This document shows positions 3 to 22,445 of a stretch of DNA of 23,191 nucleotides, one piece after another; within the stretch, counting starts at the first letter, position 1, and each line of letters begins with the position of its first letter. Origin of the DNA: a virus; IMG/VR virus record IMGVR_UViG_3300034791_000091, positions 1-23,191 of that record; one strand, given 5' to 3'. A program made the translations under genes and the position numbers. The notes under the pieces are model-generated. The model was not told the DNA's origin. It saw only the letters and a program-made list of their open reading frames with translations, and made no database searches.

Positions 3-194
3 TTTTATCAACTACGATTAAGTTTTGAAGAAGGTGGGTTTTTAGGATTTAAAAACTTAAACCCTAATCCAGTAAACAATAAAAGTCCTTTTAACAATAG
101 TGGTATAAATGCATTTATGGTACATTGCAAAGGTAAGGGTAAAGAAAAATTGCATAATAAATTTTTAAAACGTTTTAGCATACAGAGTTCATAA
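3..194 (+). CDS. C-terminal end of an unidentified protein (partial at the left edge)
   Basis: An open frame enters from the left edge and ends at TAA 192-194, giving the last 63 residues of a protein whose start lies outside the window. The tail is basic and rich in Asn and Lys. A short stretch reading AFMVHCKGKGKEKL faintly recalls the His-x-x-Gly-Lys ending of some GT-A glycosyltransferases, which would suit the glycosyltransferase genes that follow, but this is only a guess. The stop overlaps the start of the next gene (TAATG), suggesting co-transcription and translational coupling. No function is assigned. Confidence 0.6.
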   Translation, partial: FYQLRLSFEEGGFLGFKNLNPNPVNNKSPFNNSGINAFMVHCKGKGKEKLHNKFLKRFSIQSS

Positions 195-826
195 TGCACA
201 TACTGATAGCATGCGACCAAGCATATTATGACAAATGGGGTATAGAACTTTTAAAAAGTACTAGATATTATAATCCCCATAGTTGGTTAAATTTACATTG
301 TCATATAGTAAATCCTAGGCTAGGCTTTGAGCAAGTAGAAGGAGTCGACTATACAACAGAAGTAAACTCTAATGTATCTATTGCATATTTACAAGCAGTT
401 AGATTTATAGTTGCACAGGGCAAATTGCCTAAAGATGACCTAGTAATGATTTTAGATGCAGACACAGTATGCACTAAAGAATTTACAAAAGAAGAATTTA
501 TCGAAGCAACTTCTAATATAACAATATTAAAACATCATAAATCCGGAGCACTACATCAGTGGTTGTGCGGAATGGTTACGTTTGGTACTGGTAAGTTTAG
601 ACACGACTATGTCCATAACTTATTAAAGAAGAAAATTCCTGAATGGGAATACGGGCACGACCAAGATATACTTAATTTGTGTGCTGAACATTATGAATTT
701 AATAACGCACATCCGGACTGGATATGTATGGGTAAACAAAATTTAAATAGTGTATTCCTAACACTTAAAGGAACTCACAAACTTAATCCTAAATATACAA
801 ATCAATTTGAAAGGTATAAATTTTAA
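194..826 (+). CDS. GT8-like (GT-A fold) glycosyltransferase
   Basis: Probable nucleotide-sugar-dependent glycosyltransferase of 210 residues, acting in the cytoplasm. The N-terminus (MHILIACDQAYYDKWG) fits a first Rossmann strand. A hydrophobic strand leads into the metal-binding DxD motif, ILDADTVC, with DAD at residues 88-90. A second acidic motif, GHDQDILN (DQD at 156-158), is placed like the conserved DQD-x-x-N of GT8-type enzymes. Donor and acceptor cannot be told from the sequence. Its start overlaps the preceding stop and its stop overlaps the next start (TAATG at 824-828), so it is in a tightly packed operon. It is the first of three DxD-type transferases in the island; the others start at 4553 and 6958. 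Confidence 0.75.
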   Translation: MHILIACDQAYYDKWGIELLKSTRYYNPHSWLNLHCHIVNPRLGFEQVEGVDYTTEVNSNVSIAYLQAVRFIVAQGKLPKDDLVMILDADTVCTKEFTKEEFIEATSNITILKHHKSGALHQWLCGMVTFGTGKFRHDYVHNLLKKKIPEWEYGHDQDILNLCAEHYEFNNAHPDWICMGKQNLNSVFLTLKGTHKLNPKYTNQFERYKF

Positions 827-1404
827 TGGAGCAATTTCCAATGACTACACTAGCACCACACTTAGGCGGACACATGAATAAGACACATGTGGACCAAGGC
901 GCATTTGAATGGCTAATTTCTAACGGAGTAAAAAGCTTTTTAGATATTGGATGCGGACCCGGCGGCATGGTAGAACTTGCACACCAACGAGGCCTTGCTA
1001 CTCTCGGAGTAGATGGCGATCATACTATTACTAGATTTAATATTGAATCCTTTATTATACATGATTATACTACAGGCCCAGTTATAGTAGAAGACAAGTA
1101 TGATGTAGTATGGAGTGTAGAATTTTTAGAACATGTAGAAGAAGAGTACATGCCAAACTATATGAAAACATTCCAGTGTGCAAAATCAGCAGTGGTTACA
1201 TATGCACCTCCAGGATGGAACGGTCATCATCATGTTAATTTGCAAGAAGAAGATTACTGGGTTGCAAAATTTGAAGAGTATGGATTTATACTAAATGAGA
1301 GTAAGACTAAAGAACTTCGGGCTAATTCTACCTTAAACTTAGGTAAGAAAGGACGTAAGGCATTTGTAAAAAATAGAGGTTTGTTCTTCGATAATGCAAA
1401 GTGA
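826..1404 (+). CDS. Class I SAM-dependent methyltransferase
   Basis: A 192-residue methyltransferase. Motif I, FLDIGCGPGG (about residues 39-48), is the classic SAM-binding glycine loop, followed by an acidic strand end, GVDGD. The post-motif signature VVWSVEFLEHVEEEY is typical of the Methyltransf_11/23 group, and VVTYAPPGW fits the strand carrying motif IV/post. The substrate is unknown; the neighbours make a sugar or glycan plausible. The start at 826 overlaps the upstream stop, and an in-frame ATG at 841 (MTTLAPHL) is an alternative start. The last 11 nt overlap the next gene. Confidence 0.8.
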   Translation: MEQFPMTTLAPHLGGHMNKTHVDQGAFEWLISNGVKSFLDIGCGPGGMVELAHQRGLATLGVDGDHTITRFNIESFIIHDYTTGPVIVEDKYDVVWSVEFLEHVEEEYMPNYMKTFQCAKSAVVTYAPPGWNGHHHVNLQEEDYWVAKFEEYGFILNESKTKELRANSTLNLGKKGRKAFVKNRGLFFDNAK

Positions 1405-2314
1405 TCTAAAAGTTGTTGGCATTGAAGGATCGTACCGTACACATCCATTGCCTAATCTTCCAAATTTTAAAGTAGTTCCGTGGACAGATCAAGAAACTAT
1501 CCAAAATGCTGATGTATATGTACAAGCTAACATTTTAGAAAACAAGTTCTTTCGTAAGTTTAGACCACAGTACGAACATATAAGAGACAGCGGCAAGCCT
1601 TATATTGTTGTTGAAAGTAGTGTGTTTAGACGCAACATGCCGCAACCTCCAAACACAAAAGCGTACCATAGATACAGTTGGACCAGTTACTTTAGAGATG
1701 AAGGTAATTATAATAATCAAAATTGTCCACCTGATCGTTGGGAGCAAATACAAAAAGATCAACGTATTGAAATTAAAGACTGGCGCAATGACGGCGAATA
1801 TATACTACTAGCAATGCAACGCCCGGGTGATAGTAGTTTAAAAAACTTAATGGCAACACACAAAACCTTTGATAACTTTATAGCTTGGACAATTAAAGAA
1901 ATACGCAAGTATACAGATAGACCTATTGTCTGCAGAATGCATCCTGCACGAATGGATAGACAGCGTCAAGCACTTGCAAAGATTGACACTAGCGGAATTA
2001 CAATGAGTACAAACATGCATGGCTCAGGAAATCTTGAAGGTGGCGCAGGATTATACGAAGACTTTAAAAATGCATATGCTGTAGTTGGATTCAATAGTAA
2101 TGCACTTACTGAAAGTATCTGTGAAGGAATACCAACGTTTAGTCTATGCCCTAGTTCAATGGCGTGGGAGTGTTCAAACAAGAACTTAAATACACTTGAG
2201 CATCTTGAATACTTTGATAGACAACAGTGGCTTAATAACTTAGGTTATTGCCAATGGCGCGAAGACGAAATTGCTAGGGGCGACCCGTGGCATCATTTGA
2301 TAAAGGGAATATAA
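1394..2314 (+). CDS. GT-B-like putative glycosyltransferase, paralogue family member 1
   Basis: 306 residues. One of four related proteins in this window (also at 5217, 6023, 7796). Shared landmarks in order are: an N-terminal part ending in a KPYIVVE-like strand (about 68-74); the hinge block DWRNDGEYILLAMQRPGD (129-146); KEIRKYTDRPIVCRMHPAR (168-186); a late Rossmann-like segment YAVVGFNSNALTESICEGIP; and a C-terminal QQWLNNLGYCQW tail. The pattern 'candidate loses face in the open (NSN), then E-x-x-x-x-GIP' resembles the C-terminal donor domain of KpsC/LipB and CDP-glycerol-transferase-like GT-B enzymes. That is inference from layout, not an established family assignment. It overlaps the methyltransferase upstream by 11 nt and sits 1 nt before the GSCFA gene. 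Confidence 0.6.
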   Translation: MQSDLKVVGIEGSYRTHPLPNLPNFKVVPWTDQETIQNADVYVQANILENKFFRKFRPQYEHIRDSGKPYIVVESSVFRRNMPQPPNTKAYHRYSWTSYFRDEGNYNNQNCPPDRWEQIQKDQRIEIKDWRNDGEYILLAMQRPGDSSLKNLMATHKTFDNFIAWTIKEIRKYTDRPIVCRMHPARMDRQRQALAKIDTSGITMSTNMHGSGNLEGGAGLYEDFKNAYAVVGFNSNALTESICEGIPTFSLCPSSMAWECSNKNLNTLEHLEYFDRQQWLNNLGYCQWREDEIARGDPWHHLIKGI

Positions 2315-2315
2315 T

Positions 2316-3278
2316 ATGGCTAAGGCTAGACTAGCAAATGCAATGGCAAATTCAAAAGGCAGCGGCAAAATGTCTGCAGGCAACGTTGATTTAAAGAAAA
2401 GCAAATGGCACACTAATAATTTAATAAGCTATTTTCCTAAAGAAAAATCACAGTTTGATGATTTAGAGACACTAGCAAAGGAATATGTGTTTGCAGAATA
2501 TGGACCTGCAAGTCCTATTTTCCCTGCAGATGGCACTGTAGTTACAATGGGCAGTTGCTTTGCTGAACGTCTAAGAAATTGGTTAAAAGCAAATGGTAAG
2601 AATAGTGATTACATTAATGTTCCAGAAGGACTTAATAATTCATTTGCTGTAAGACAATATCTTGAATGGGCATTAACTGGCGACCGTAGTACTGATGCAT
2701 ATTGGTACGATAATGATCCAACAGCTGGAGCATATCAATGGGAGCCTGAAGACGAACAAAAGGCTCTATTGGAGCATTTTAAAAACACAAAGGGTGTAGT
2801 AGTTACATTTGGGTTAGCCGAAGTGTGGCGAGATAAGGCTACTAAAAATGTATTTTGGAGAGGAGTTCCTGCAAAGTATTTTGATCCTGACAAGCATGAA
2901 TGTGTTACTAGTACTGTACAAGAAAACGTAGATAACATGAAACGTATATATGATTTAATTGTGCAACATGCAGGATTAGACACAACAATTATTTTTACAC
3001 TAAGCCCTGTTCCACTTAATGCAACGTTTATGGGCAGACCAACTATTATTAGTGACTGTGTTAGTAAGTCGACATTACGTGTAGCGATTGATCAATTCTT
3101 TAACGAATATAAAAATGCAACTAATGCATACTACTGGCCAAGCTTTGAAATGGTACGCTGGGTAGGAGCACATACTGACTTCCCCACATTGTTTGAAGAT
3201 GGCACTCCGAGGCATGTTAACAACAAAGTAGTATCAATTATTATTGAAAACTTTGTTAGAAAGTTTTTTGTAAAATGA
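2316..3278 (+). CDS. GSCFA-domain protein (SGNH-hydrolase-like)
   Basis: 320 residues. The family-naming motif is present: VVTMGSCFAERL, with GSCFA at residues 79-83. The other family landmarks follow in order: VVTFGLAEVWRD, FTLSPVPLNATF, and the YWPSFEMV segment near the C-terminus. GSCFA proteins belong to the SGNH/GDSL esterase-like superfamily and are usually found with polysaccharide genes; their reaction is poorly defined, with acyl or acetyl transfer or removal on glycans the usual guess. A purine-rich AAAGGGAA about 7-14 nt upstream can serve as ribosome binding site. It ends with an ATGA overlap into the next gene. The first 40 residues are Lys/Ser-rich and look unstructured. Confidence 0.8.
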   Translation: MAKARLANAMANSKGSGKMSAGNVDLKKSKWHTNNLISYFPKEKSQFDDLETLAKEYVFAEYGPASPIFPADGTVVTMGSCFAERLRNWLKANGKNSDYINVPEGLNNSFAVRQYLEWALTGDRSTDAYWYDNDPTAGAYQWEPEDEQKALLEHFKNTKGVVVTFGLAEVWRDKATKNVFWRGVPAKYFDPDKHECVTSTVQENVDNMKRIYDLIVQHAGLDTTIIFTLSPVPLNATFMGRPTIISDCVSKSTLRVAIDQFFNEYKNATNAYYWPSFEMVRWVGAHTDFPTLFEDGTPRHVNNKVVSIIIENFVRKFFVK

Positions 3279-3760
3279 AATTAGAATTCGGTTGTGGTGA
3301 ATCACCAACCTATCCAGATTATAAAACTTGTGATATTAGAAATTTACCAGGTATTGATTTTGTATGTAATGCTTGGGACATAGATAAACATGTTATAAAA
3401 AATTCTGCAACACATATTTTTTCAAGACACTTTTTAGAACATCTAACATTTGAACAAGGTGAACGCTGGCTCAAATCATGTCTTACAATATTAGACTCAG
3501 GCGGCGAGATGCACTTAATGCTTCCTAATATGGACTTTCATATACACCAGTGGGTAGTAGGTAAAAATATTGCTCATGCACGAGGAGGATTTTGGGGATG
3601 GCAAAGAGAAGCCGAAACTGGAGAAACTTGGGATATACACAAGAGTGGATATAATGCAGTACAGCTAATACAACTATTAGAATCTTGCGGTTATATAAAT
3701 TGTCGCTCCTTGCATAAACCAAACAATAAACATCTTGGAATAGCTTGCTACAAACCATAA
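3275..3760 (+). CDS. SAM-dependent methyltransferase, short (COG4627-like)
   Basis: 161 residues. The SAM-binding loop is at the very N-terminus (KLEFGCGESP), followed by YKTCDIR, whose Asp is in the usual ribose-binding position. Then come HIFSRHFLEHLTFEQGERWL and a GGEMHLMLPN strand. This FEHL/LEHL-then-LKPGG-like arrangement is typical of the small predicted methyltransferases that occur in LPS and O-antigen clusters. The substrate is unknown. ATG overlaps the upstream TGA (ATGA). The gene is followed by a 37-nt gap that holds a late-type promoter. Confidence 0.75.
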   Translation: MKLEFGCGESPTYPDYKTCDIRNLPGIDFVCNAWDIDKHVIKNSATHIFSRHFLEHLTFEQGERWLKSCLTILDSGGEMHLMLPNMDFHIHQWVVGKNIAHARGGFWGWQREAETGETWDIHKSGYNAVQLIQLLESCGYINCRSLHKPNNKHLGIACYKP

Positions 3761-3797
3761 TAAATATACATCATTAACTACGCACATAAATATCTAC
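3761..3797 (+). promoter_or_regulatory. Intergenic gap with a T4-late-like promoter box (CATAAATA, 3785-3792)
   Basis: The octamer CATAAATA at 3785-3792 differs by one base from the T4 late consensus TATAAATA, which in T4 occupies about -13 to -6. Counting from that spacing puts +1 at 3798, exactly the A of the next ATG. No Shine-Dalgarno sequence lies between the box and the start codon. A weaker AATAAATA occurs at 3759-3766. The function is inferred from position and match, not shown. Confidence 0.5.
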
Positions 3798-4553
3798 ATG
3801 AGCAAAGTAGTTTTAGTTACAGGCGGATTCGATCCGCTACACAGTGGGCATATTGCCTATTTTAAAGAAGCAAAGAAATTAGGCGATCGATTAGTAGTTG
3901 GCCTAAATTCAGATGAATGGCTAGAGCGTAAAAAGGGCAAAGCATTTATGCCTTGGAATGAGCGACTATGCATTGTAAACAATTTACAAATGGTCGATGA
4001 AGTTTTTACATTTATGGACGATGATGATTCTGCTATAAATTTTATAAAACAAGTTAAAGCACATCACCCTAAGGATCATTTAATTTTTGCAAACGGCGGC
4101 GATAGGACAGAACAAAACATTCCAGAAATGTCCGTTGAAGGTGTCGAGTTTGTATTTGGTGTAGGCGGTGGCAATAAAGCTAACAGCAGCAGTTGGATTC
4201 TTAAAGAATGGAGTCATCCTAGTACAGAACGTGCTTGGGGAAAATACACTGTGTTAGACAACGGCAAAGGCTATCAAGTTAAACAACTTGCATTTGGCTC
4301 TAAAAAAGAATTAAGCGATCAAAGACATTTTAAGCGTAGTGAACATTGGCATGTTGTTGAAGGTAATATAAAAATGGTATTGGAATATGAAAACGGTGAC
4401 ATAACATACACAACTCATACATCAGGCGACAGTATTGATATTCCAATTAATACATGGCACAAAGCAATTAATGTAGGTCAAGAAACAGCAAAGGTTATAG
4501 AAGTTTGGATGGGCGATGAACTTACAGAACAAGATATAGAAAGAAGAGATTAA
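3798..4553 (+). CDS. Fusion of HxGH nucleotidyltransferase and ManC/PMI-type cupin
   Basis: 251 residues with two domains. The N-terminal part (about 1-135) is a TagD/RfaE-type cytidylyltransferase: TGGFDPLHSGH carries the catalytic HxGH at residues 15-18, followed by a typical VVGLNSDEWL strand. The C-terminal part (about 143-245) matches the type II phosphomannose-isomerase cupin found at the end of ManC: RAWGKYTVLD (145-154), YQVKQL, and the metal-ligand region RHFKRSEHWHVVEG with His 177, 183 and 185. The enzyme may activate a sugar or polyol phosphate with CTP, with the cupin as isomerase or epimerase; the substrate is not known. The gene overlaps the following one by a single base (TAATG) and is probably under the late-type box just upstream. 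Confidence 0.75.
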   Translation: MSKVVLVTGGFDPLHSGHIAYFKEAKKLGDRLVVGLNSDEWLERKKGKAFMPWNERLCIVNNLQMVDEVFTFMDDDDSAINFIKQVKAHHPKDHLIFANGGDRTEQNIPEMSVEGVEFVFGVGGGNKANSSSWILKEWSHPSTERAWGKYTVLDNGKGYQVKQLAFGSKKELSDQRHFKRSEHWHVVEGNIKMVLEYENGDITYTTHTSGDSIDIPINTWHKAINVGQETAKVIEVWMGDELTEQDIERRD

Positions 4554-5230
4554 TGAAAGTATTTGTAGGTTACGACACAAGAGAAGACATGGCATACCAA
4601 GTATGCAAGCACAGTCTTGAAGCACGTAATAAAGATGTAATTGTAAAGCCTTTGAAGCAAGCAGAGCTTAGAGAATCAGGCTGGTATACTCGTCCTATAG
4701 ATAAACTTGCAAGTACCGAATTTACATTTACAAGATTCCTCGTACCAGAACTAACTAACTTTAATGGGTGGGCATTGTTCTGCGATAGTGATATTATCTT
4801 TTTAGAAGATGTCAAAGAACTGTTTGATCAAGCAGATGACAAGTATGCAGTAATGTGTGTTAAGCATGACTATGCACCTAAAGAAGGTATTAAGATGGAT
4901 GGACAGACACAAACAGTTTACCCACGTAAGAATTGGTCAAGTGTTATGTTGTTTAACTGCGGACATCCTAGCAATGCTAGGCTTGACATGGACCTAGTTA
5001 ATGAACCAGAAATAAACGGAGCGTACTTACATCGCTTCAGTTGGTTAATGGACGAAGAGGTTGGAGAACTAAGTCACGAATGGAATTACTTAGTTGGACA
5101 TTATACAGGCGGTAGCCCAAAGGCACTGCATTACACAGAAGGCGGACCGTGGTTTGAAAACTATAGAAACTGCGAGTTCCATACAGAATGGAAACAAGAA
5201 CTACAGGATATGATGAATGACGGAAACTAA
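4553..5230 (+). CDS. GT8-like glycosyltransferase
   Basis: 225 residues. KVFVGYDTREDMAYQVCKHS at the start is the typical opening of GT8-like enzymes ('vyigyD.re..ay.v...S'). The metal-binding motif is LFCDSDIIFLED (DSD at 78-80). SSVMLFNCGHPS (129-140) fits the conserved 'S-x-M-x-F-N' region. HEWNYLV and ALHYTEGGPW (HY at 193-194, PW at 199-200) match the His- and Trp-containing tail that contacts the donor in this fold. Sugar and acceptor are unknown. It starts on the last base of the upstream stop and overlaps the next gene by 14 nt if that gene begins at 5217. Confidence 0.8.
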   Translation: MKVFVGYDTREDMAYQVCKHSLEARNKDVIVKPLKQAELRESGWYTRPIDKLASTEFTFTRFLVPELTNFNGWALFCDSDIIFLEDVKELFDQADDKYAVMCVKHDYAPKEGIKMDGQTQTVYPRKNWSSVMLFNCGHPSNARLDMDLVNEPEINGAYLHRFSWLMDEEVGELSHEWNYLVGHYTGGSPKALHYTEGGPWFENYRNCEFHTEWKQELQDMMNDGN

Positions 5231-6026
5231 GATGTTAGCAATTGATACTAGAGATGCTATTGTAAGTTGTTTTGCACAAGGTACTCAAGCAGAAGAAATC
5301 GAGGGCTGGAAAAACCTTGATAATTTGGATCCTACAATACCAGTTGTATTTCGTAGTATGTCTCAGCGTAAAACTGTTAAAATGTGCGAATACCAAAACC
5401 GCCCTTACTATTATATCGACACAGGATATATTGGAAATCTAAATAAGAAAAAACATTGGCATCGTGTTGTGCCTAATGGTATGCAACATAGTAACCCTAG
5501 ATTTGATTTACCTGCTGATAGATTCGATAAGTGTATTGACAGTCAAGATATTAGGTTTAAAGGCTGGCGGCGGAATGGTAGTGCTATATTACTAGTAACA
5601 CCATCCGGCAAGCCTTGTTCGTTTTACGGAATTGATCGAGATGTATGGATAGAAGAAACTGTTGCTGAAATTAAAAAATATACTGACAGAGAAGTAATTG
5701 TCAGAAATAAAGGACTTAGAAGAGAACGAGTTAGGTCGCATAGTATATACTCGCAGTTCGAAGAAGATAATATTTTTGCAGTTGTAACATATAACAGTAT
5801 TGCTGCAACTGAAGCAATTGGTTATGGCATTCCGGCATTTACATTAGCACCAAATGCTGCTGACTTTGCATGTGGAACTGACCTAAGTAAAATTGAGACG
5901 CCGTTATACGTAGAAGAAGAAAAAGTAATTGGTTGGCAGAACTGGTTGGGATATTGTCAATTTAACCCGCAAGAGATGGTGGCTGGAACAGTGCTACCTA
6001 TGCTAAAGGAGTATGAAATCCAATGA
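5217..6026 (+). CDS. GT-B-like paralogue family member 2 (divergent, lacks the HP motif)
   Basis: 269 residues, the shortest of the four paralogues. It keeps the block FKGWRRNGSAILLVTPSGKP (114-133), EIKKYTDREVIVR (151-163), the AVVTYNSIAATEAIGYGIPAF segment and the WQNWLGYCQF tail. Where the other three have Arg-x-His-Pro after the second strand, this one reads RNKGLRR (163-169), so the His-Pro pair is gone. That may mean altered or lost catalysis, or a scaffold role. An in-frame ATG at 5232, just after the upstream stop at 5230 and with GGAA 6-9 nt before it, is a credible alternative start. The last 4 nt overlap the next paralogue. Confidence 0.55.
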   Translation: MTETKMLAIDTRDAIVSCFAQGTQAEEIEGWKNLDNLDPTIPVVFRSMSQRKTVKMCEYQNRPYYYIDTGYIGNLNKKKHWHRVVPNGMQHSNPRFDLPADRFDKCIDSQDIRFKGWRRNGSAILLVTPSGKPCSFYGIDRDVWIEETVAEIKKYTDREVIVRNKGLRRERVRSHSIYSQFEEDNIFAVVTYNSIAATEAIGYGIPAFTLAPNAADFACGTDLSKIETPLYVEEEKVIGWQNWLGYCQFNPQEMVAGTVLPMLKEYEIQ

Positions 6027-6961
6027 CAATACAAGTAGCAAGTTACTTGATGGGGATACCTCCAGGCAACACTAATTCTGAAAAGCCAACTATTATTGTT
6101 AACGCCATTGAAGGTGTATGGGCAGCTGGAGACAACGGCACGATAGTAACAGATTACAATGTAGTTGATTGTGACGTAGCAGTAATGCAAGGCTTTGTTC
6201 ACCCTGGAAGTAAAAATACAAAACATTTAGATCTTAGAAAACGAGTAATGGAACATCAACAAAAAAGAGGAAAACGCACTCTTATTGTTGATGCTAATTT
6301 ATTTTTATATGCAGATCCTGGTAATAGTAATAAGTTTTTAAGATATAGTTATGATGGAATCTTTCCTACTACTGGCGAGTATTGTAACGGCAACCCTGAT
6401 CCTGCAAGATGGGAATTAATTAAATACCGACTTGGATTAGAGTTAAAACCATGGAAGACAAACGGAAGCGTTATTTTATTATGTTGCCAACGAGATGGTG
6501 GCTGGAGTATGGACGAACAGCCTTTACTTCCTTGGGTTGTAAGAACAGTACAAAATATTAGGAAATATTCAGATAGAACAATAGTAGTAAGATTTCACCC
6601 AGGCGACAAAAATCAAATAGAACACAAAAGATCTATTGCTAGATACAGACTGCCTAATGTTAGAGTTTCTAATTCAGAAAGTATTATGCATGATTTACAA
6701 ACTGCACATTGCTTAGTAAATCATAATTCAAGTCCAGGAGTAGTAGCTGCTATTGAAGGAATTCCTGTATTTTTAACAGATCCAGATAGAAGCCAAGCTA
6801 AGGATGTAGCACATAATAATTTTGCTGACATTGAAAATATAACAAAGTTTGATAGACAGCCTTGGATTGAAAAGATGGCAATGATGCATTGGACACTTGA
6901 CGAACTTAAATCCGGCACAGCTTGGAAACACCTTAGACAATGGGCGGACAAACCACTATGA
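6023..6961 (+). CDS. GT-B-like putative glycosyltransferase, paralogue family member 3
   Basis: 312 residues. It aligns by eye to its neighbours over the whole C-terminal half: DPARWELIKYRLGLELKPW, TNGSVILLCCQRDGG (146-160), NIRKYSDRTIVVRFHPGD (178-195, HP at 192-193), CLVNHNSSPGVVAAIEGIP and the RQPWIEKMAMMHW tail. The N-terminal part keeps the DCDVAVMQGF strand and the KRTLIVDANLF strand expected for the first Rossmann-like domain. It follows member 2 directly with an ATGA-type overlap, which points to tandem duplication. Donor and acceptor are unknown. It ends with an ATGA overlap into the glycosyltransferase at 6958. Confidence 0.6.
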   Translation: MTIQVASYLMGIPPGNTNSEKPTIIVNAIEGVWAAGDNGTIVTDYNVVDCDVAVMQGFVHPGSKNTKHLDLRKRVMEHQQKRGKRTLIVDANLFLYADPGNSNKFLRYSYDGIFPTTGEYCNGNPDPARWELIKYRLGLELKPWKTNGSVILLCCQRDGGWSMDEQPLLPWVVRTVQNIRKYSDRTIVVRFHPGDKNQIEHKRSIARYRLPNVRVSNSESIMHDLQTAHCLVNHNSSPGVVAAIEGIPVFLTDPDRSQAKDVAHNNFADIENITKFDRQPWIEKMAMMHWTLDELKSGTAWKHLRQWADKPL

Positions 6962-7806
6962 AAGATATAACAGTACTAACAACATTTCATCAAGAAGGTC
7001 TTGATGTATACGGACAACGGTTTTTAGATAGCTTTGCAACTAACATTGACAAGCGTATTAAGCTATTAGTATATGCAGAAGATTGTACACCAGTAAATCC
7101 AGACCCAGAACAGATTACAATACTTGATGCAAAGAAAGTGTTACCTAAGCTAGTTGCGTTTAAAATGAGATGGGGAGCAGTTCCAAAAGCAAATGGTATT
7201 CCACCAGATGATATTAAAGCACGTAGACCACGCGACTGGCACAAGGAATTTAAGTGGGACGCAGTACGCTTCGCTAATAAGACATATGCTGTGTATGACG
7301 CTGTACAACGCTCTAAGGACTGGTGTGTGTGGATGGATGCTGATACATTTGTACATAGCACATGGGCATACGAAGACTTTCTAAAACAGTTACCAGACAA
7401 TGCTTGGATCACTTATGTAGGCAGAGGCAAAGGATCACAGACATGGCCGGAGTGTGGCTTCTACGGATTAAACTTAAATCATCCTGTGTGTCACGAGTTC
7501 CTTAAAGAGTTTGAAAGAGTATACGAAGAAGCAGACGACGGTATCTTTAAACTTGAAGAATGGCATGATAGTTTTGTATTTGGAACTATCTTAAATAAAA
7601 TGAAAGAAGACTTTCCAACAGTATTAGATTACAGTGCTAACATATATAACAACCCAGCTAAGACTGGTGGAGGCGGACATCCTTTAATTAATTCTGATTT
7701 AGGCAAATGGATTGACCACTTAAAAGGTGCAAGAAAAACTGAAGGACGGAGTAAAGCTAAGGATCTTATGAGCCGCCGGCAGGAAGCGTATTGGAATGAA
7801 GTTTAG
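6958..7806 (+). CDS. DxD glycosyltransferase (GT-A-like)
   Basis: 282 residues from the ATG at 6958, chosen because it forms an ATGA overlap with the preceding stop; an in-frame ATG at 6940 would add six residues. The start MKDITVLTTFHQEGLDVYGQ looks like a first strand plus donor-base loop. The metal site is DWCVWMDADTFVHS (DAD at 127-129). ECGFYGLNLNHP and EWHDSFVFG, with an acidic pair that could be the catalytic base region, follow as in family-2/8-like transferases of phages and O-antigen loci. The specificity is unknown. The final 11 nt overlap the next gene. Confidence 0.7.
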   Translation: MKDITVLTTFHQEGLDVYGQRFLDSFATNIDKRIKLLVYAEDCTPVNPDPEQITILDAKKVLPKLVAFKMRWGAVPKANGIPPDDIKARRPRDWHKEFKWDAVRFANKTYAVYDAVQRSKDWCVWMDADTFVHSTWAYEDFLKQLPDNAWITYVGRGKGSQTWPECGFYGLNLNHPVCHEFLKEFERVYEEADDGIFKLEEWHDSFVFGTILNKMKEDFPTVLDYSANIYNNPAKTGGGGHPLINSDLGKWIDHLKGARKTEGRSKAKDLMSRRQEAYWNEV

Positions 7807-8647
7807 TTTATGGAGACAGTATGGCGCACTCAATAGTAGAACAGTTTTTGATGCCTTTGCTTCTAGTTTGCTGGATGCTGGTCATGTTGTTTCTAACAAT
7901 GATATTAGCAGCGATGTTGATGTTATTTGGAGTGTTCTTTGGAATGGCCGTATGGCTGGAAACGAACGTATTTGGAAAGATAACAAACTCAAACAAAAAC
8001 CAACTATAGTATTAGAAGTCGGCGGCATACAACGCGGAACAACATGGAAAGTAGGATTAAATGGCATTAATAGGGACGCTTATTTTGGCCCTGTGGGTAA
8101 TGATTCTGTACGTGCTGATAACCTTGGGTTATCTTTAAAGCCTTGGCGCACAACAGGAAAATATATCCTTATTTGTGGTCAGCATGAAAAAAGTCAACAG
8201 TGGGAACTAATGCCTAATATGACTGCCTGGTTAGGCAATACTATTAATAACATTAGACAATATACTGATATGGATATTGTTTGGAGGCCTCATCCTAGAT
8301 ATCCAGTACAGTATGTAGAACAAGACTTTAAAGATGTTATACGACAAACGCCTAACAAATTAGAAAGCACATATGACGATTATGATTTTGGTGTAAGAGA
8401 TGCATGGGCTACTGTATGCGAAAGTTCTAATCCTGGCTCACACAGTATTATTGCAGGAATTCCAGCATTTGTAAGTAATAGTTCATTAGCGTACGATGTC
8501 GGCAACGATATATCCTTTATGCACGATATAGGTAATCCTTATATGCCTGATAGACGCCAGTGGCTTAACGATTACGCACATACAGAATACACCCTCTCAG
8601 AAATATCTGCAGGATTACCATTAAAACACTTGACATCTAAGCTATAA
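7796..8647 (+). CDS. GT-B-like putative glycosyltransferase, paralogue family member 4
   Basis: 283 residues, the last gene of the glycan island. It shares with members 1-3 the DVDVIWSVLWNGR strand, KPTIVLEVGGIQRG (69-82), LSLKPWRTTGKYILICGQ (112-129), NIRQYTDMDIVWRPHPR (152-168, HP at 166-167), a WATVCESSNPGSHSIIAGIP segment and the RQWLNDYAHTEYTLSEI tail with a final KHL. Divergence between members is large, so the duplications are old or fast-evolving. A sigma70-type promoter is embedded in the final codons: its -35 box lies inside this gene and the stop TAA (8645-8647) is part of an AT-rich stretch just before the -10. Confidence 0.6.
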   Translation: MKFSLWRQYGALNSRTVFDAFASSLLDAGHVVSNNDISSDVDVIWSVLWNGRMAGNERIWKDNKLKQKPTIVLEVGGIQRGTTWKVGLNGINRDAYFGPVGNDSVRADNLGLSLKPWRTTGKYILICGQHEKSQQWELMPNMTAWLGNTINNIRQYTDMDIVWRPHPRYPVQYVEQDFKDVIRQTPNKLESTYDDYDFGVRDAWATVCESSNPGSHSIIAGIPAFVSNSSLAYDVGNDISFMHDIGNPYMPDRRQWLNDYAHTEYTLSEISAGLPLKHLTSKL

Positions 8648-12878: not shown

Positions 12879-13499
12879 ATGTTTAATATTTTTAAAAACG
12901 TAGACAGAAGTATGCTTATGAAACTAGTAGCACTTCATGTTATTGTTATTACAGTTTCAAACGCACTTGTAGGTATTCCAGTAGAAATATTTGGAATTAA
13001 ACTTACATGGGCAGCATTTACGTTTCCACTAGTTGTTCTTGCAACTGACTTAACAGTTAGGTTGTTAGGTAAGAGTATTGCAAGGTCGACAATTGCCGCT
13101 GCATATCCTTTAGCAATTATTGGTTCTATTGCTGTAGTAATGTTAGAAGGTGCGCCGACTAGTGTAGCACTACGTATTGGCTTTGCAAGTGCAACAGCTT
13201 ACGGCGTTGGTACATTTCTTGACGTATATGTATTTCAGTATTTAAGAGAAAACTGGAGTAAACAGTGGTGGATTGCACCAGCAGTATCAACTGTTGCAGC
13301 AAACATTATTGATACATATGCATTCTTTTATGTTGCGTTTGCAAACAGTGCAGATGAATACATGTCAGCAAATTGGATGGAAATTGCAGGTTCACAAGTT
13401 GTAATTAAAATTGCAGTAGGCTTAATAATCTTCCTACCAGCTTATGGAGTATTACTCCGTTATCTCAAAAATAGAGTAGCTGATGGCGATCAAGGGTAA
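12879..13499 (+). CDS. yhhQ: YhhQ/VUT-family queuosine-precursor (preQ0) transporter
   Basis: 206 residues with about six hydrophobic segments and Lys/Arg-rich ends, so an inner-membrane protein. FPLVVLATDLTVRLLGKS (FP at 49-50, Asp 57, Gly 64) is the signature loop of the VUT family (PF02592), whose E. coli member YhhQ imports 7-cyano-7-deazaguanine. Phages use preQ0 either to make 7-deazaguanine-modified DNA that resists restriction enzymes, or to boost tRNA queuosine. No TGT/DpdA-like transglycosylase or que genes are seen in this window. A strong ribosome binding site, AGGAAGGA (12861-12868), lies about 10 nt before the ATG, in contrast to the promoter-proximal genes. Confidence 0.85.
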   Translation: MFNIFKNVDRSMLMKLVALHVIVITVSNALVGIPVEIFGIKLTWAAFTFPLVVLATDLTVRLLGKSIARSTIAAAYPLAIIGSIAVVMLEGAPTSVALRIGFASATAYGVGTFLDVYVFQYLRENWSKQWWIAPAVSTVAANIIDTYAFFYVAFANSADEYMSANWMEIAGSQVVIKIAVGLIIFLPAYGVLLRYLKNRVADGDQG

Positions 13500-13770
13500 A
13501 TTGATACCTGGAGAAGCATTGATATATGAGCGGGCCAACGGTGTTGTGTTCGCTCATTATCGAGACCCCCCGCATAACAAAATACCTCGTTGGATCATTG
13601 GTGGTGACAAAGATGGTGTGGACCGTGCTACAGCAAAAGAACAGGGCGATTTGTTCACATACAGAGACTGGCAGGACATAAACGAAATGGCTAAGACACA
13701 TAAGACATTGTCTGTCTATTTAAATAAGATATTTGACATATACTTGATGACAAAGGAAACAAAGAAATGA
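13483..13770 (+). CDS. Small conserved phage protein, function unknown
   Basis: 95 residues, soluble. It contains FAHYRDPPHNKIPRWIIG, a block that looks conserved and that I associate with small hypothetical proteins of T4-like marine phages, though I cannot confirm this without a search. The C-terminus is Lys-rich. It overlaps the transporter gene by 17 nt and the kdsA gene by 4 nt (ATGA), so it is part of the same packed operon. Confidence 0.7.
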   Translation: MAIKGKLIPGEALIYERANGVVFAHYRDPPHNKIPRWIIGGDKDGVDRATAKEQGDLFTYRDWQDINEMAKTHKTLSVYLNKIFDIYLMTKETKK

Positions 13771-14564
13771 TTACAATAATTGCAGGACCGTGTCAGCACG
13801 AAAGCTTAGAACACAGTTTGAATATTGCAAAGCATTGTAAAGATATATGTGACAAGTATGGCGCAGAGTATATTTTTAAAGCTAGTTTTGATAAGGCCAA
13901 TCGTAGTAGTATGCAAGGCAAGCGTGGTGTAGGTTTTACAAATACACTACATGACTTTGAAGAGATTAGAGGCGAAGTGGGGTGTAAGACGCTCACAGAC
14001 GTTCATACAGTAGAGCATATTACAAACATAACAACTTACTATAACAACGCAGTAGACGTACTACAAATACCCGCATTCCTTTGTAGACAAACTGATTTAC
14101 TACAAGCGGCATGTGCAACTGATAAGATTGTTAATATTAAAAAAGGACAGTTCCTAGCACCTTGGGATATGAAGGGAATACTGTCTAAGACTGAAGGTGC
14201 TAGAGAGGTTTGGATAACCGAGAGAGGAACTAGCTTTGGATACAATACTTTGGTTGTGGATTTTACCGGCTTGGATTACATGCTTAATAATTATAACTAT
14301 CCTGTGGTTTTGGATGCCACCCACAGTGTACAGAAACCAGGCGGCAACGGAGGCAGTAGCGGCGGCAATAGGGATTACGTTCCTGGCCTATGTCGTGCAG
14401 GCAGTGCTTTGGGCATTAGGAATTTCTTTTTAGAAGTACATCCAGATCCAGACAACGCACCCAGTGATGGTCCAAATATGCTTCGTATAGAAGACTTTGA
14501 TAAAGTAGTAGGAGAGATACATGAATACAGCTATACTAATTCCAGCGAGAGCAGCTTCAACTAG
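13767..14564 (+). CDS. kdsA: 3-deoxy-D-manno-octulosonate-8-phosphate synthase
   Basis: Condenses phosphoenolpyruvate with arabinose-5-phosphate to give Kdo-8-phosphate, the first step towards the Kdo of lipopolysaccharide and some capsules. 265 residues, slightly short of the usual 275-285. Signatures in order: IIAGPCQHES, FKASFDKANRSS, KTLTDVHT, VLQIPAFLCRQTDLL, VNIKKGQFLAPWDM, ITERGTSFGYNTLVVD, LDATHSVQKPGG, and FLEVHPDPDNAPSDGPNML. These are the active-site blocks of KdsA; nothing looks broken. The final residues (EYSYTNSSESSFN) run through the start of kdsB, an overlap of 44 nt, and look like an added tail. Confidence 0.93.
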   Translation: MITIIAGPCQHESLEHSLNIAKHCKDICDKYGAEYIFKASFDKANRSSMQGKRGVGFTNTLHDFEEIRGEVGCKTLTDVHTVEHITNITTYYNNAVDVLQIPAFLCRQTDLLQAACATDKIVNIKKGQFLAPWDMKGILSKTEGAREVWITERGTSFGYNTLVVDFTGLDYMLNNYNYPVVLDATHSVQKPGGNGGSSGGNRDYVPGLCRAGSALGIRNFFLEVHPDPDNAPSDGPNMLRIEDFDKVVGEIHEYSYTNSSESSFN

Positions 14565-15198
14565 GTTTCCTGATAAACCTCTAGCATTGCTTAACGATGT
14601 ACCGATGATACGTAGAGTGTACGATCGTTGCTGTATGACGGGCTTAGACACCTTTGTGCTTACTGATAGCAAGCGTATTGCAAGCTTATTTCCAGAAGGT
14701 AATGTGATTGTTGATTACACTGATTATGCTAACGGCACAGAACGATGCTGTGGGGCAGTTGATAAGCTTCCCCAAGAGTATGACCAAATTATTAATGTCC
14801 AAGGTGACATGCCTGACGTTACACAAGAAATGATTAAGAAGATTGAACTTACATTACAGTACGATTCACTAGCAACATTATGGGCCGACTTTCCAGATAA
14901 GAGCTTGACAGATGATCCTAATAGTGTTAAACTAATACATAACTGTTCTTATGCTAACTGGTTTGGTAGAGGATTTGCATATGGAAGTTGGCACTTAGGT
15001 GTGTATGGATTTAAGACTCACGTACTAAAATTGTACAATGGATTAAACGTACCACCTGAAGAAGATATCGAAAAACTAGAACAGTTACGTTGGATACAAG
15101 CTGGCTATAGAATAGCATTAGGTAAAGTATTATTTAACGGCGTAGAGATTAACACACCAGGGGACTTAGTAGAATGGCACAGCAAAAATTACCTTTAG
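14521..15198 (+). CDS. kdsB: 3-deoxy-manno-octulosonate cytidylyltransferase (CMP-Kdo synthetase)
   Basis: Activates Kdo with CTP to CMP-Kdo, the donor for Kdo transferases. 225 residues, a little shorter than the usual 245-250. Diagnostic blocks: AILIPARAASTRFPDKPLA at the N-terminus (nucleotide-binding loop), FVLTDSKRI, ANGTERCCGAV, INVQGDMPDV with the catalytic acidic pair, SWHLGVYGF, and LEQLRWIQAGYRI. The gene directly follows and overlaps kdsA, so the pair forms a CMP-Kdo module. KdsD (isomerase) and KdsC (phosphatase) are not in the window, and the host would have to supply those steps. The last 25 nt overlap the next gene. Confidence 0.92.
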   Translation: MNTAILIPARAASTRFPDKPLALLNDVPMIRRVYDRCCMTGLDTFVLTDSKRIASLFPEGNVIVDYTDYANGTERCCGAVDKLPQEYDQIINVQGDMPDVTQEMIKKIELTLQYDSLATLWADFPDKSLTDDPNSVKLIHNCSYANWFGRGFAYGSWHLGVYGFKTHVLKLYNGLNVPPEEDIEKLEQLRWIQAGYRIALGKVLFNGVEINTPGDLVEWHSKNYL

Positions 15199-17660: not shown

Positions 17661-18216
17661 TATTGATATTGACTTTGCTGACAGGACTGTTGTGCTTGCA
17701 CAAATTAAACATCGTGTGGCAAAATTAGATACAGGAAAGAAACACAACACCGGAGTCTATGCAAACGAGATTCCTCATAACCCAGTTGACGGGCTGTCAA
17801 CAATAGAACATAAGACTGCGGAAGAACGCGGCTACTTTAAACTAGACTTTCTTAATGTAAGCATTTACAAGGAAGTTAATAACGAAGCACATTTAACAGA
17901 GCTAATGGAAAGGAAACCACTATGGCAACTTCTGGAACACAAGGACTTCAGCGACAAAGTCTTTCATCTGAACGGGCACGACGAACTATTGAAACAATTG
18001 AAACCTACTTCGGTACAACAATTAGCAGCGACACTAGCGATCATTCGTCCAGCGAAACGATATCTAGCAAACAAGGATTGGGAAACAATAATGAAGGAAG
18101 TATGGATCAAACCGACTAATGGTGATTACTTCTTTAAGAAAGCACATGCTGTTGGCTATGCAATGGCATGTGTAGTACACATGAATTTAATTTGTGAAAA
18201 CTTGGATAAGGATTAG
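17653..18216 (+). CDS. Miniature DNA polymerase III alpha-like protein
   Basis: 187 residues against about 1,160 for bacterial Pol III alpha. It keeps the family-C active-site landmarks in order: MPDIDIDF (Asp 5 and Asp 7, equivalent to the PDFDVDF pair), YFKLDFLNV (Asp 65, equivalent to the third catalytic Asp in 'FDFLGL'), VFHLNGHDELLKQLKPTS with LAIIRPAKRYL (104-138, like the 'VFQLES...L.RP' finger region), and FFKKAHAVGYAMACV (160-173, like the 'F.KSHAAAYALVS' block). The PHP domain, thumb, OB fold and clamp-binding tail are absent. It could be a degenerate yet active mini-polymerase, a regulator or decoy, or a remnant. Its stop is interlocked with that of the convergent gene (4-nt overlap). 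Confidence 0.75.
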   Translation: MPDIDIDFADRTVVLAQIKHRVAKLDTGKKHNTGVYANEIPHNPVDGLSTIEHKTAEERGYFKLDFLNVSIYKEVNNEAHLTELMERKPLWQLLEHKDFSDKVFHLNGHDELLKQLKPTSVQQLAATLAIIRPAKRYLANKDWETIMKEVWIKPTNGDYFFKKAHAVGYAMACVVHMNLICENLDKD

Positions 18217-18587
18217 TCTTTAGGAGGTCTTCGTACTAATTGTACAGACTTTCTTTTAATTCGTTTAACAGCTAGATTATTTAAATTAACACAAGGGCCT
18301 ATAGTAACTTTTACGTCCTTGCTGTTCATTGTCATTATACAATATTTAAATGTTCTCATTTCACCAGCCATAAAAATGTTGATTGGAATCATTCTATTTG
18401 ACTCCCACCACCACACTTCGCCTAGTTCGAGAAACCGTTGTTGTTCTACTTTTGTGTTTAATTCTGTGTATACGTACATACTGGTTACACTAGCATCTTG
18501 GTTAATTACTACCCCAACATACTCTTGTCCACCGTAATTTACTACACTTAAAAATGGAAAGTTATTTTCAATGTCTTTTGTTAACAT
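18213..18587 (-). CDS. Unknown protein, the only minus-strand gene
   Basis: 124 residues. Not recognised. It starts MLTKDIENNFPFLSVVNYGG and contains an aromatic run, GEVWWWESNRMIPINIFM, and a basic C-terminus (VKRIKRKSVQLVRRPPKD) that could bind nucleic acid. No membrane segment is seen. It is convergent with the mini-polymerase gene (stops overlap) and divergent from the late gene at 18619, with only 31 nt between. I recall small reverse-strand genes in similar positions in marine T4-like phages, but cannot check this. A separate promoter on the minus strand is needed; none is clear. Confidence 0.7.
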   Translation of the reverse strand: MLTKDIENNFPFLSVVNYGGQEYVGVVINQDASVTSMYVYTELNTKVEQQRFLELGEVWWWESNRMIPINIFMAGEMRTFKYCIMTMNSKDVKVTIGPCVNLNNLAVKRIKRKSVQLVRRPPKD

Positions 18588-20853: not shown

Positions 20854-21486
20854 ATGAATACGCAAGAATATCGAAATACACTTGTTAACATTGCTAGTAA
20901 GCATTGGAAGAAAGCTCCTGGTGCAAAGTATATACACAAGTGGGATTTGTACATGCTTGAAAAACAATTTTGTGTAGACAACATGAACTTTGACGGCGTT
21001 GACTCTATTCTTGAAATTGGATGCGGCATGGGAATGTTAGCACACCTAATGCAACAAAAAGGTGTTAACGATATTGAACTAACTGACGTAGATGAGTTCT
21101 TTGATGGCAAAGACAAAGGTGCTTTGTACAAAGAATGTTGTGACGTATTAGGTTTCAAACGTTTCATAATGTACGTTAACATGAACGAGCCTATGAAGTT
21201 AGATAGACAGTATGATATGATTGTAGCTACACGTACAGTGTTTGATAGAGAGTGTTTAGTGCCCGGAACTATATTTAATTACGAGTACTGGCTAGATGAT
21301 TGTTTCAAGTATTGTAAACGAGTGTTTGTAAAAACAAACTTTGCAGGAGGAGGTAAAAGCTTTCCTGATTACATGCGTCCTTACCTATGGTGGCCTACAG
21401 GTCCAGAAGGTGAGTCACTTGGTAAGCCAAGGAGAGGATGGTATATTAGAGTTGACAAAGACGAATGGGAGAATCGCAACAAATGA
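20854..21486 (+). CDS. Class I SAM-dependent methyltransferase
   Basis: 210 residues from the ATG at 20854; the frame is open further upstream but those residues overlap the previous gene. Motif I is ILEIGCGMGMLAHLM, followed by IELTDVDEFF as the acidic strand end. YDMIVATRTVFDRE is in the post-I position. The C-terminal half carries aromatic loops (YLWWPTGPEGESLGKPRRGW) that may hold the acceptor. The substrate is unknown. Its stop overlaps the start of the carbamoyltransferase (ATGA), so the two probably decorate the same product. Confidence 0.78.
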   Translation: MNTQEYRNTLVNIASKHWKKAPGAKYIHKWDLYMLEKQFCVDNMNFDGVDSILEIGCGMGMLAHLMQQKGVNDIELTDVDEFFDGKDKGALYKECCDVLGFKRFIMYVNMNEPMKLDRQYDMIVATRTVFDRECLVPGTIFNYEYWLDDCFKYCKRVFVKTNFAGGGKSFPDYMRPYLWWPTGPEGESLGKPRRGWYIRVDKDEWENRNK

Positions 21487-22445
21487 TAACTTGGGGAATG
21501 GTTGGAAACAGTCACGATGCTAGTTTAGCAGTATTCAAAAACGAAGAACTACTGTGGGCGGCTCTTGCTAAAGACTTTAGCAAGGTACCCAACGACCCAC
21601 ACTTCAACCCTCCAATGATCGAAACAGCAGAGGCTAAGTTCGGAAAGCCTGATGCTGTACAGTGGTACGAACGTCCTGGGCTCAAAACACTACGTCAGTT
21701 TTATGCTGGACAGGGTTGGTTAGGTAAAGAGAATAACATCAACAAGTACCTCAAGCAATGGTATATTAATGCTCCTATTAGTTATACCCAACATCATCTA
21801 TCACATGCGGCCTATGCGTATTACACCCAGCCACATGATGACTGTGCTGTAATTGTAATAGACAGTATTGGAGAGTTCGAGACCCTGACTATATGGCATG
21901 GTAAGAACAACAAACTAAAGAAGATACACAGTCAAGGCTACCCACATAGCTTAGGGTTGTTCTACAGTGCTATGACTCAACGTGTAGGGCTAGTGCCGCA
22001 ACGTGACGAGTATATGCTTGCTGAGATGGGTGACAAGGGTAACGCTAAGAGACATTTTATAAAGATACTCAACGAGCTAGTATTAACAGACGGGGTTGGT
22101 TGGAACCCTAAGATTAAGATGATAGAAAATTTACACCGTGGTTGTAAATGGTGGAGACCTGAACTACGAAGTCAAGAAGATTTAAACGACATAGCAGCAG
22201 CTACGCAAAAAGTATTTGAATATTGTGTTAACAATTTAAGTGCATGGACTAAGAAACATACAGGTAGTAAGCACCTAGCACTAGCAGGAGGAGGCGCCCT
22301 TAACAGAAGAGCAGTAGACGGCATACGAGACAAATGGAGTGAAGTACATGTTCCACACAATCCAGGTGACCCGGGTAGTTGTATAGGAGCAGTACTAGCA
22401 CAAACGAAAACCAAGATAACACTTGACAAGCAGTGGCAAAGGTAG
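21483..22445 (+). CDS. Short carbamoyltransferase (NodU/TobZ-type, Kae1-like domain)
   Basis: 320 residues from the ATG at 21483, chosen for the ATGA overlap with the methyltransferase stop. WGMVGNSHDASLAVF opens the ASKHA/Kae1 fold; YTQHHLSHAAYAYY (His 104, His 105, His 108) is the metal-binding motif; VIVIDSIGEFET replaces the usual 'DGvGe'; HSLGLFYSAMTQRVG and DEYMLAEMGDKGN match NodU-type active-site loops; LALAGGGALNRRAVDG and NPGDPGSCIGAVL are the last nucleotide-binding loops. Typical NodU/TobZ enzymes run to about 550-600 residues with a YrdC-like C-terminal domain, which is missing here. The missing half would be a partner or be unnecessary. The acceptor (sugar, or nucleotide) is unknown. 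Confidence 0.8.
   Translation: MITWGMVGNSHDASLAVFKNEELLWAALAKDFSKVPNDPHFNPPMIETAEAKFGKPDAVQWYERPGLKTLRQFYAGQGWLGKENNINKYLKQWYINAPISYTQHHLSHAAYAYYTQPHDDCAVIVIDSIGEFETLTIWHGKNNKLKKIHSQGYPHSLGLFYSAMTQRVGLVPQRDEYMLAEMGDKGNAKRHFIKILNELVLTDGVGWNPKIKMIENLHRGCKWWRPELRSQEDLNDIAAATQKVFEYCVNNLSAWTKKHTGSKHLALAGGGALNRRAVDGIRDKWSEVHVPHNPGDPGSCIGAVLAQTKTKITLDKQWQR

Follow-up and report, generated by a model that had tools for sequence, protein, structure and literature searches.

The closest described systems are the characterized retaining β-Kdo (3-deoxy-D-manno-oct-2-ulosonic acid) transferases KpsC, WbbB and KrkA of the glycosyltransferase (GT) families GT107, GT99 and GT140, whose active sites combine a nucleophile Asp in a QxxxD motif with the His of (K/R)xHP, a phosphate Ser, a ribose Glu and a base Glu, and whose D-to-A variants are inactive (PMC9587256; PMC10148158; PMC12887879). 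The Gln of QxxxD contacts the Kdo carboxylate (PMC9587256). Retaining Kdo transferases are glycosyltransferases shown to use covalent double displacement, and published work describes the nucleophile Asp as absolutely conserved. Here, we analyzed the whole 23,191-base IMG/VR virus record IMGVR_UViG_3300034791_000091 (the window), which carries four paralogous genes, named below by their start positions. The reading we favor, with a probability of about 60%, is a pathway dependent on CMP (cytidine monophosphate)-Kdo that builds a glycan, in which one paralogue would be a retaining Kdo transferase and the other three would have an altered mechanism; activities, donors, mechanism and acceptor are all predicted. 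The four genes are as follows (aa, amino acids):

1394..2314, + strand: clade A paralogue P0001, 306 aa, a retaining Kdo-transferase-like GT-B protein with E74...R79, Q142RPGD146, R181MH183P and S235/E240
5217..6026, + strand: clade D paralogue P0002, 269 aa, lacking the Gln, the nucleophile and the HP His, and keeping an Asp at the base position, the Arg181 equivalent, the Ser and the Glu
6023..6961, + strand: clade B paralogue P0003, 312 aa, with QR(N/D)GGWSM in place of QxxxDS, RxHP kept and D90 as the Asp at the base position
7796..8647, + strand: clade C paralogue P0004, 283 aa, with QHxxS in place of QxxxD, and RPHP kept, as is the base Glu, which belongs to LEVGG

Homology was detected by blastp in all six pairs, with E values of 4.8e-36 (1394 versus 6023), 4e-23 (6023 versus 7796), 1e-21 (1394 versus 5217), 3e-16 (1394 versus 7796), 3e-9 (5217 versus 6023) and 6e-7 (5217 versus 7796), and profile-profile comparison of clades A to D against one another gave E values of 2e-26 to 3e-57. 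The motif blocks that an earlier note on this DNA had described as common to the four are real but looser than written: 5217 has RNKG where the others have the HP motif, 7796 carries the variants ILI, SSNPG...GIP and WLNDYAHTEYTLSE, and 6023 has NSSPGVVAAIEGIP, without the E at that place. The N-terminal halves, said there to differ, do diverge more than the C-terminal halves, yet they align, and each of the four clades has an acid where the same strand ends. No membrane segments were predicted in the four proteins.

A PDB sequence search with 6023 gave nothing significant, and the best hit of a PDB profile search, WbbB at E 0.69, was not significant; comparison of folds was therefore needed. 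Models of 1394 and 6023 were obtained with AlphaFold (AF2) at a predicted local distance difference test score (pLDDT) of 95.5 and 96.3, respectively. In Foldseek, the top 28 PDB matches of the 1394 model were all KpsC, WbbB or KrkA (E 1.2e-7 to 1.7e-5, TM-score about 0.5), as were the top 22 of the 6023 model. Since TM-scores near 0.5 indicate the same fold class with domain shifts and not close relatives, the models suggest that 1394 and 6023 share the retaining Kdo transferase fold class with their domains shifted, without close kinship. Furthermore, the clade A profile matched a profile of bacterial KpsC/KpsS built from alphaproteobacterial genomes, whose labels are ours, assigned from PF05159 scores and motifs (E 2.9e-8, probability 95; QxxxD, xHP and NS...E aligned). 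Thus, the GT-B-like fold put forward previously and the comparison with KpsC proposed there were borne out, whereas the CDP-glycerol transferases, named for comparison too, are ruled out as nearest kin by the fold ranking, in which TagF appeared only at E 2e-3 and 4e-4 for the 1394 and 6023 models, well behind KpsC, WbbB and KrkA. LipB gave no separate fold match, and no comparison by name was made. Several same-fold proteins were also seen in the giant algal virus Tetraselmis virus 1 (BFVD A0A2P0VP54 and A0A2P0VNK4, E to 5e-16).

Among the described enzymes, KpsC, the GT107 β-Kdo transferase of the group 2 capsule linker, was the best Foldseek match of both models, and clade A can be aligned with its QxxxD, xHP and NS...E blocks and with its E....R hairpin; however, it is larger, has two modules and a membrane-anchoring region, is only about 12-14% identical, and has the nucleophile that B, C and D have lost. 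The GT99 module of WbbB, also a retaining β-Kdo transferase, shares the fold, QxxxDS, HP and the E-x4-R spacing (Glu158/Arg163 versus Glu74/Arg79), although its chain is longer and sequence similarity is negligible. KrkA (GT140) shares the fold and the double-displacement logic and, as a GT family newly defined despite negligible sequence similarity, provides a precedent, but its base Glu lies on another element, it has Ser for the Lys/Arg of (K/R)xHP, and it is a single fused ribosyl/Kdo polymerase.

Active-site residues were equated by alignment, not by measured model coordinates, and alignment columns were counted over 138 clade members (A 41, B 33, C 24, D 36 and E 4, the last a fifth clade present in some viruses). 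On this basis, clade A has every known catalytic residue (E74-x4-R79, Q142-D146, R181-x-H183-P184, S235 and E240), and E74, Q142, D146, R181 and E240 are invariant in 41/41 orthologues. In hhalign, Q142RPGD146 of 1394 aligned with the QxxxD of KpsC; RMHP, S235 and E240 occupy the places of (K/R)xHP, the phosphate Ser and the ribose Glu; and E74/R79 fall opposite KpsC VEDGFLR at the E-x4-R base position of GT99/GT107 with low local confidence, a motif on which the E/D of clades A, C and D each fell in low-threshold profile alignments.

The nucleophile Asp is present throughout clades A (41/41) and E (4/4) and in none of the 93 members of B, C and D, where the position is Gly in B (33/33), Ser in C (24/24) and Pro, Val or Ala in D (36/36). 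The base position is acidic (Glu/Asp) in 138/138, clade C included (24/24); the cytosine-binding Arg of RxHP (Arg181) is likewise invariant (138/138), and the S235 position is Ser or Thr in all members. B and C retain the HP His (57/57, as RFHP and RPHP), while clade D has K, R or F instead (36/36; RNKG in 5217) and thus lacks (K/R)xHP; the Gln of QxxxD is kept in A, B, C and E. The quartet may add different sugars in sequence to one glycan, as the earlier note suggested, and it is plausible that chemistry or donors differ among its members, given that B, C and D have all lost the nucleophile. An ancestral Asp, lost in B, C and D, is favored because KpsC, WbbB and KrkA possess it, the family tree itself being unrooted.

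In Pfam, PHROG and NCBIfam scans of the window proteins, no family scored above cut-off for any of the four paralogues (the NCBIfam scan covered 1394, 6023 and 7796, plus 5217 within set A2), and none of the four reached the gathering score of PF05159 Capsule_synth or matched it even at E 1. At E 0.01, 2/91 family members matched PF05159 and 15/91 matched TIGR04396 surf_polysacc, and a family relative in an alphaproteobacterial assembly (L116) exceeds the PF05159 cut-off. The suggestion of an undescribed group thus largely stands as regards curated families, but the fold puts the group in the retaining Kdo transferase superfamily. In IMG/VR, a search with a four-row profile recovered at least 543 related stretches, so that a name can now be given to many marine viral genes that lacked annotation; 80 of the stretches were kept for analysis, and these together with the window held 230 family open reading frames (ORFs) by iterated hidden Markov model search, 4-5 per contig where coverage was better.

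In a tree of 80 members, the window genes fell into four clades, each split off from all other members by a single branch, with branch supports of 97/79 (A), 94/93 (B), 100/100 (C) and 100/99 (D). Same-order orthologues of the four clades occur in dozens of marine virus contigs, and most contigs with at least three copies follow the order A - nucleotidyltransferase - GT8-like - D - B - GT - C. The four separate clades rule out a recent local duplication; duplication, as proposed earlier, did build the set, but it is old, the clades and their order being conserved across many viruses. All four genes are under purifying selection, with dN/dS below about 0.12, similar to that of UvsW (dN 0.10-0.17; dS near or above 1.5, close to saturation). 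This, together with clade-wide fixation, rules out pseudogene decay of the nucleophile-less copies.

The quartet is embedded in further genes of sugar metabolism and transfer, listed here with their profile matches:

194..826, + strand: putative DxD (LDADTV) glycosyltransferase, from sequence reading; weak DUF6492 match; position conserved in relatives
826..1404, + strand: S-adenosylmethionine (SAM) methyltransferase; Methyltransf_23 E 1.8e-7
2316..3278, + strand: GSCFA-family protein, a putative glycan acyl-ester enzyme; PF08885 E 3e-33
3275..3760, + strand: small methyltransferase-like protein; Methyltransf_23 E 0.001, below cut-off
3798..4553, + strand: nucleotidyltransferase resembling heptose-1-P adenylyltransferase, with a sugar-type cupin domain in the same protein; rfaE_dom_II E 8e-22 (below cut-off), MannoseP_isomer E 1e-22
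4553..5230, + strand: GT8-like DxD glycosyltransferase, the unfused partner of clade D; Glyco_transf_8 E 1e-4 (below cut-off), phrog_28018 E 6e-54
6940..7806, + strand: putative GT-A protein (MDADTFV DxD) between clades B and C, from sequence reading; no family match; position conserved in relatives
13767..14564, + strand: KdsA, Kdo-8-phosphate synthase; NF003543 equivalog 340 bits (cut-off 242)
14521..15198, + strand: KdsB-like CMP-Kdo synthetase, overlapping KdsA; PRK05450 subfamily 159 bits (cut-off 193)

The alternation with DxD glycosyltransferases that the earlier note had described holds for the genes at 194, 4553 and 6940, but it is not strict, because 5217 and 6023 are directly adjacent, their ORFs overlapping by 4 bp. 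About 27 relatives have a single protein of 470-590 aa that combines the clade D domain with the GT8-like enzyme; 4553 and 5217 are therefore functionally linked. A PDB search with the GT8-like partner itself gave nothing meaningful.

KdsA and the KdsB-like gene lie 5 kb downstream of the quartet. KdsA also scored 328.7 against TIGR01362 (cut-off 314) and matched PDB 3fs2 at E 3e-81, and all 13 PDB matches of the KdsB-like protein were KdsB (best E 2e-24). KdsA was present in 11/15 family contigs that extend 3.9 kb or more beyond clade C; the contigs are related, so these are not 11 independent events. Clear KdsA matches occurred in 4 of 50,697 phage records, with weaker matches at 25-30% that may be 3-deoxy-D-arabino-heptulosonate 7-phosphate (DAHP) synthases. 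In the literature on phage KdsA/KdsB alongside these GT genes, we found only a general report of KdsA and other lipopolysaccharide (LPS) genes in one marine viral genome. The same quartet also occurs on 335-kb and 153-kb contigs (L085 and L086) binned in a Marinimicrobia metagenome-assembled genome (MAG). The 335-kb relative has GmhB-, HldD- and HldE-like genes of the ADP-heptose route, all below curated cut-offs, which suggests that ADP-heptose synthesis may be phage-encoded there. These genes form a minus-strand cluster (L107 1474-5708) that also holds a cupin and a 2-oxoglutarate (2OG)-Fe(II) oxygenase.

Taken together, the gene content suggests that the phage may build its own unusual Kdo-containing glycan. 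The four proteins would be GT-B enzymes of the retaining β-Kdo (CMP-ulosonate) transferase superfamily, with the GT99/GT107/GT140 fold, from four anciently diverged clades apparently kept together by a lineage of marine jumbo T4-like phages. Most likely, 1394 would be a Kdo transferase that uses CMP-Kdo as donor and works by double displacement: Asp146 of QxxxD would attack Kdo, Glu74 would activate the acceptor, and His183 and Ser235 would hold the phosphate of the leaving CMP, with phage KdsA and KdsB helping to supply CMP-Kdo. B, C and D would be same-fold descendants in which the base acid and the Arg that binds cytosine persist but the nucleophile is missing; most likely, they would be active without a covalent adduct (for example, as inverting enzymes) on CMP-activated or related donors, or on other sugars. 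With the DxD transferases, the methyltransferases and the GSCFA protein, the quartet would assemble a short decorated Kdo glycan in the cytoplasm, perhaps also containing heptose in relatives, and more likely carried by a virion protein than exported as a polymer. A phage lineage with an Asp-bearing form beside three nucleophile-less same-fold relatives is a natural experiment on the origin or loss of the mechanism, and if the products contain Kdo, this would also be an example of inner-core-type sugars made by a phage itself. A more specific and rather doubtful version is that B and C, and perhaps D, switched from retaining (double-displacement) to single-displacement inverting CMP-ulosonate transfer when the nucleophile was lost and the base acid stayed, and that one phage would thus make both Kdo-type anomers and its own LPS-inner-core-like glycan.

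Several results weigh against the CMP-Kdo pathway. TM-scores to PDB entries were mostly 0.3-0.55 and profile probabilities to KpsC 77-96, so function is transferred over a large distance; the KdsB-like protein falls below curated cut-offs (159 versus 193 for the subfamily; 103 versus 155 for TIGR00466); KdsA is absent from four contigs that continue for 16-60 kb downstream of clade C; and among the KdsA-less relatives searched, the Caulobacter phages and Pelagibacter phage Mosig encode no CMP-sugar synthetase. In addition, a KpsC homologue cited in PMC12887879 transfers pseudaminic acid, so Kdo is not the sole possible donor. That homologue, the phages without KdsA or any CMP-sugar synthetase and the absence of the nucleophile from B, C and D are what one would expect if the same fold used pseudaminic acid, another CMP-nonulosonate or another nucleotide sugar, with KdsA and KdsB serving another pathway such as a top-up of host LPS. 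We consider this unlikely, since KdsA/KdsB are rare in phages yet lie near the quartet in 11 of the 15 informative contigs, the carboxylate-contacting Gln is kept in A, B, C and E, and CMP-Kdo is usually made by Gram-negative hosts anyway. It is also improbable, in our judgment, that only A is active and that B, C and D are pseudo-glycosyltransferases binding acceptors or partners (D, for example, as the acceptor-binding domain of the GT8-like enzyme): the cytosine-contacting Arg, the phosphate Ser (Ser/Thr) and the base acid are retained in all three, the clade-specific active-site motifs GGWSM and QHxxSxQW are almost fixed, and purifying selection is strong, even though the nucleophile is missing in 93/93, its replacement inactivates the described enzymes, and clade D, whose relatives include fusions to the GT8-like domain, is additionally without the Gln and the HP His.

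A possibility we rate at somewhat below even odds is that the genes serve to remodel host LPS or capsule during infection, for receptor masking or superinfection exclusion, and not to make a virion glycan. The inner core of LPS contains Kdo and heptose, addition of Kdo takes place at the cytoplasmic face, the 335-kb relative carries heptose genes, and like proposals exist for marine phages carrying LPS genes (PMC5332604). However, no lipid A or lipid-carrier transferase was recognized, a crude hydropathy test of the window and of 60 kb of the 335-kb relative revealed no membrane gene resembling a flippase or polymerase, and the homologues in Caulobacter phages abut a tail protein gene. Finally, the short motifs are weak alone and not all common to the four, which would fit chance sharing or unrelated GT-B proteins; the agreement of blastp, profile and fold results on homology rules this out, leaving it a negligible probability.

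In the Caulobacter phages CcrColossus (L090 5958-7633) and CcrSC (L106 3790-5468), two tandem family genes lie between a tail gene and lysis genes. CcrColossus gp127/gp128 and Mosig gp185/gp187 resemble the window genes in being paired family members beside other glycosyltransferase genes, but there are only two copies, clade-D-like or outlying, without KdsA/KdsB; the homologues in cultured Caulobacter phages make part of what is proposed here testable. The annotated gp128 of CcrColossus starts later, and is shorter, than the ORF used here. An α-2,3-sialyltransferase-like gene is also adjacent in CcrColossus and CcrSC, where the family genes are annotated as hypothetical.

The UvsW-like helicase of the window is 55% identical to that of the Sinorhizobium jumbo phage Phosso and 53% identical to that of Agrobacterium phage Atu_ph07; with the primase- and DnaB-like genes recognized by sequence reading, this gene content places the window with the large T4-like myoviruses. 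On the 335-kb contig, a 40-kb stretch ending just beyond the quartet has a T4-type terminase, a tail sheath protein and a RecA/UvsX-like gene, and most likely, therefore, this contig is the genome of a jumbo phage that was placed in the MAG bin. Both MAG contigs are probably misbinned phage contigs, and one of them is perhaps a second assembly of the same virus. Their phage island copies are near-identical. Elsewhere in the window, positions 12879-13499 encode a Vut_1-type transporter (putative vitamin uptake), and 21465-22445 encode a short carbamoyltransferase-like protein with only the N-terminal Carbam_trans domain. A minus-strand ORF at 18213-18587 stands amid the plus-strand gene array, and GC skew drops there too.

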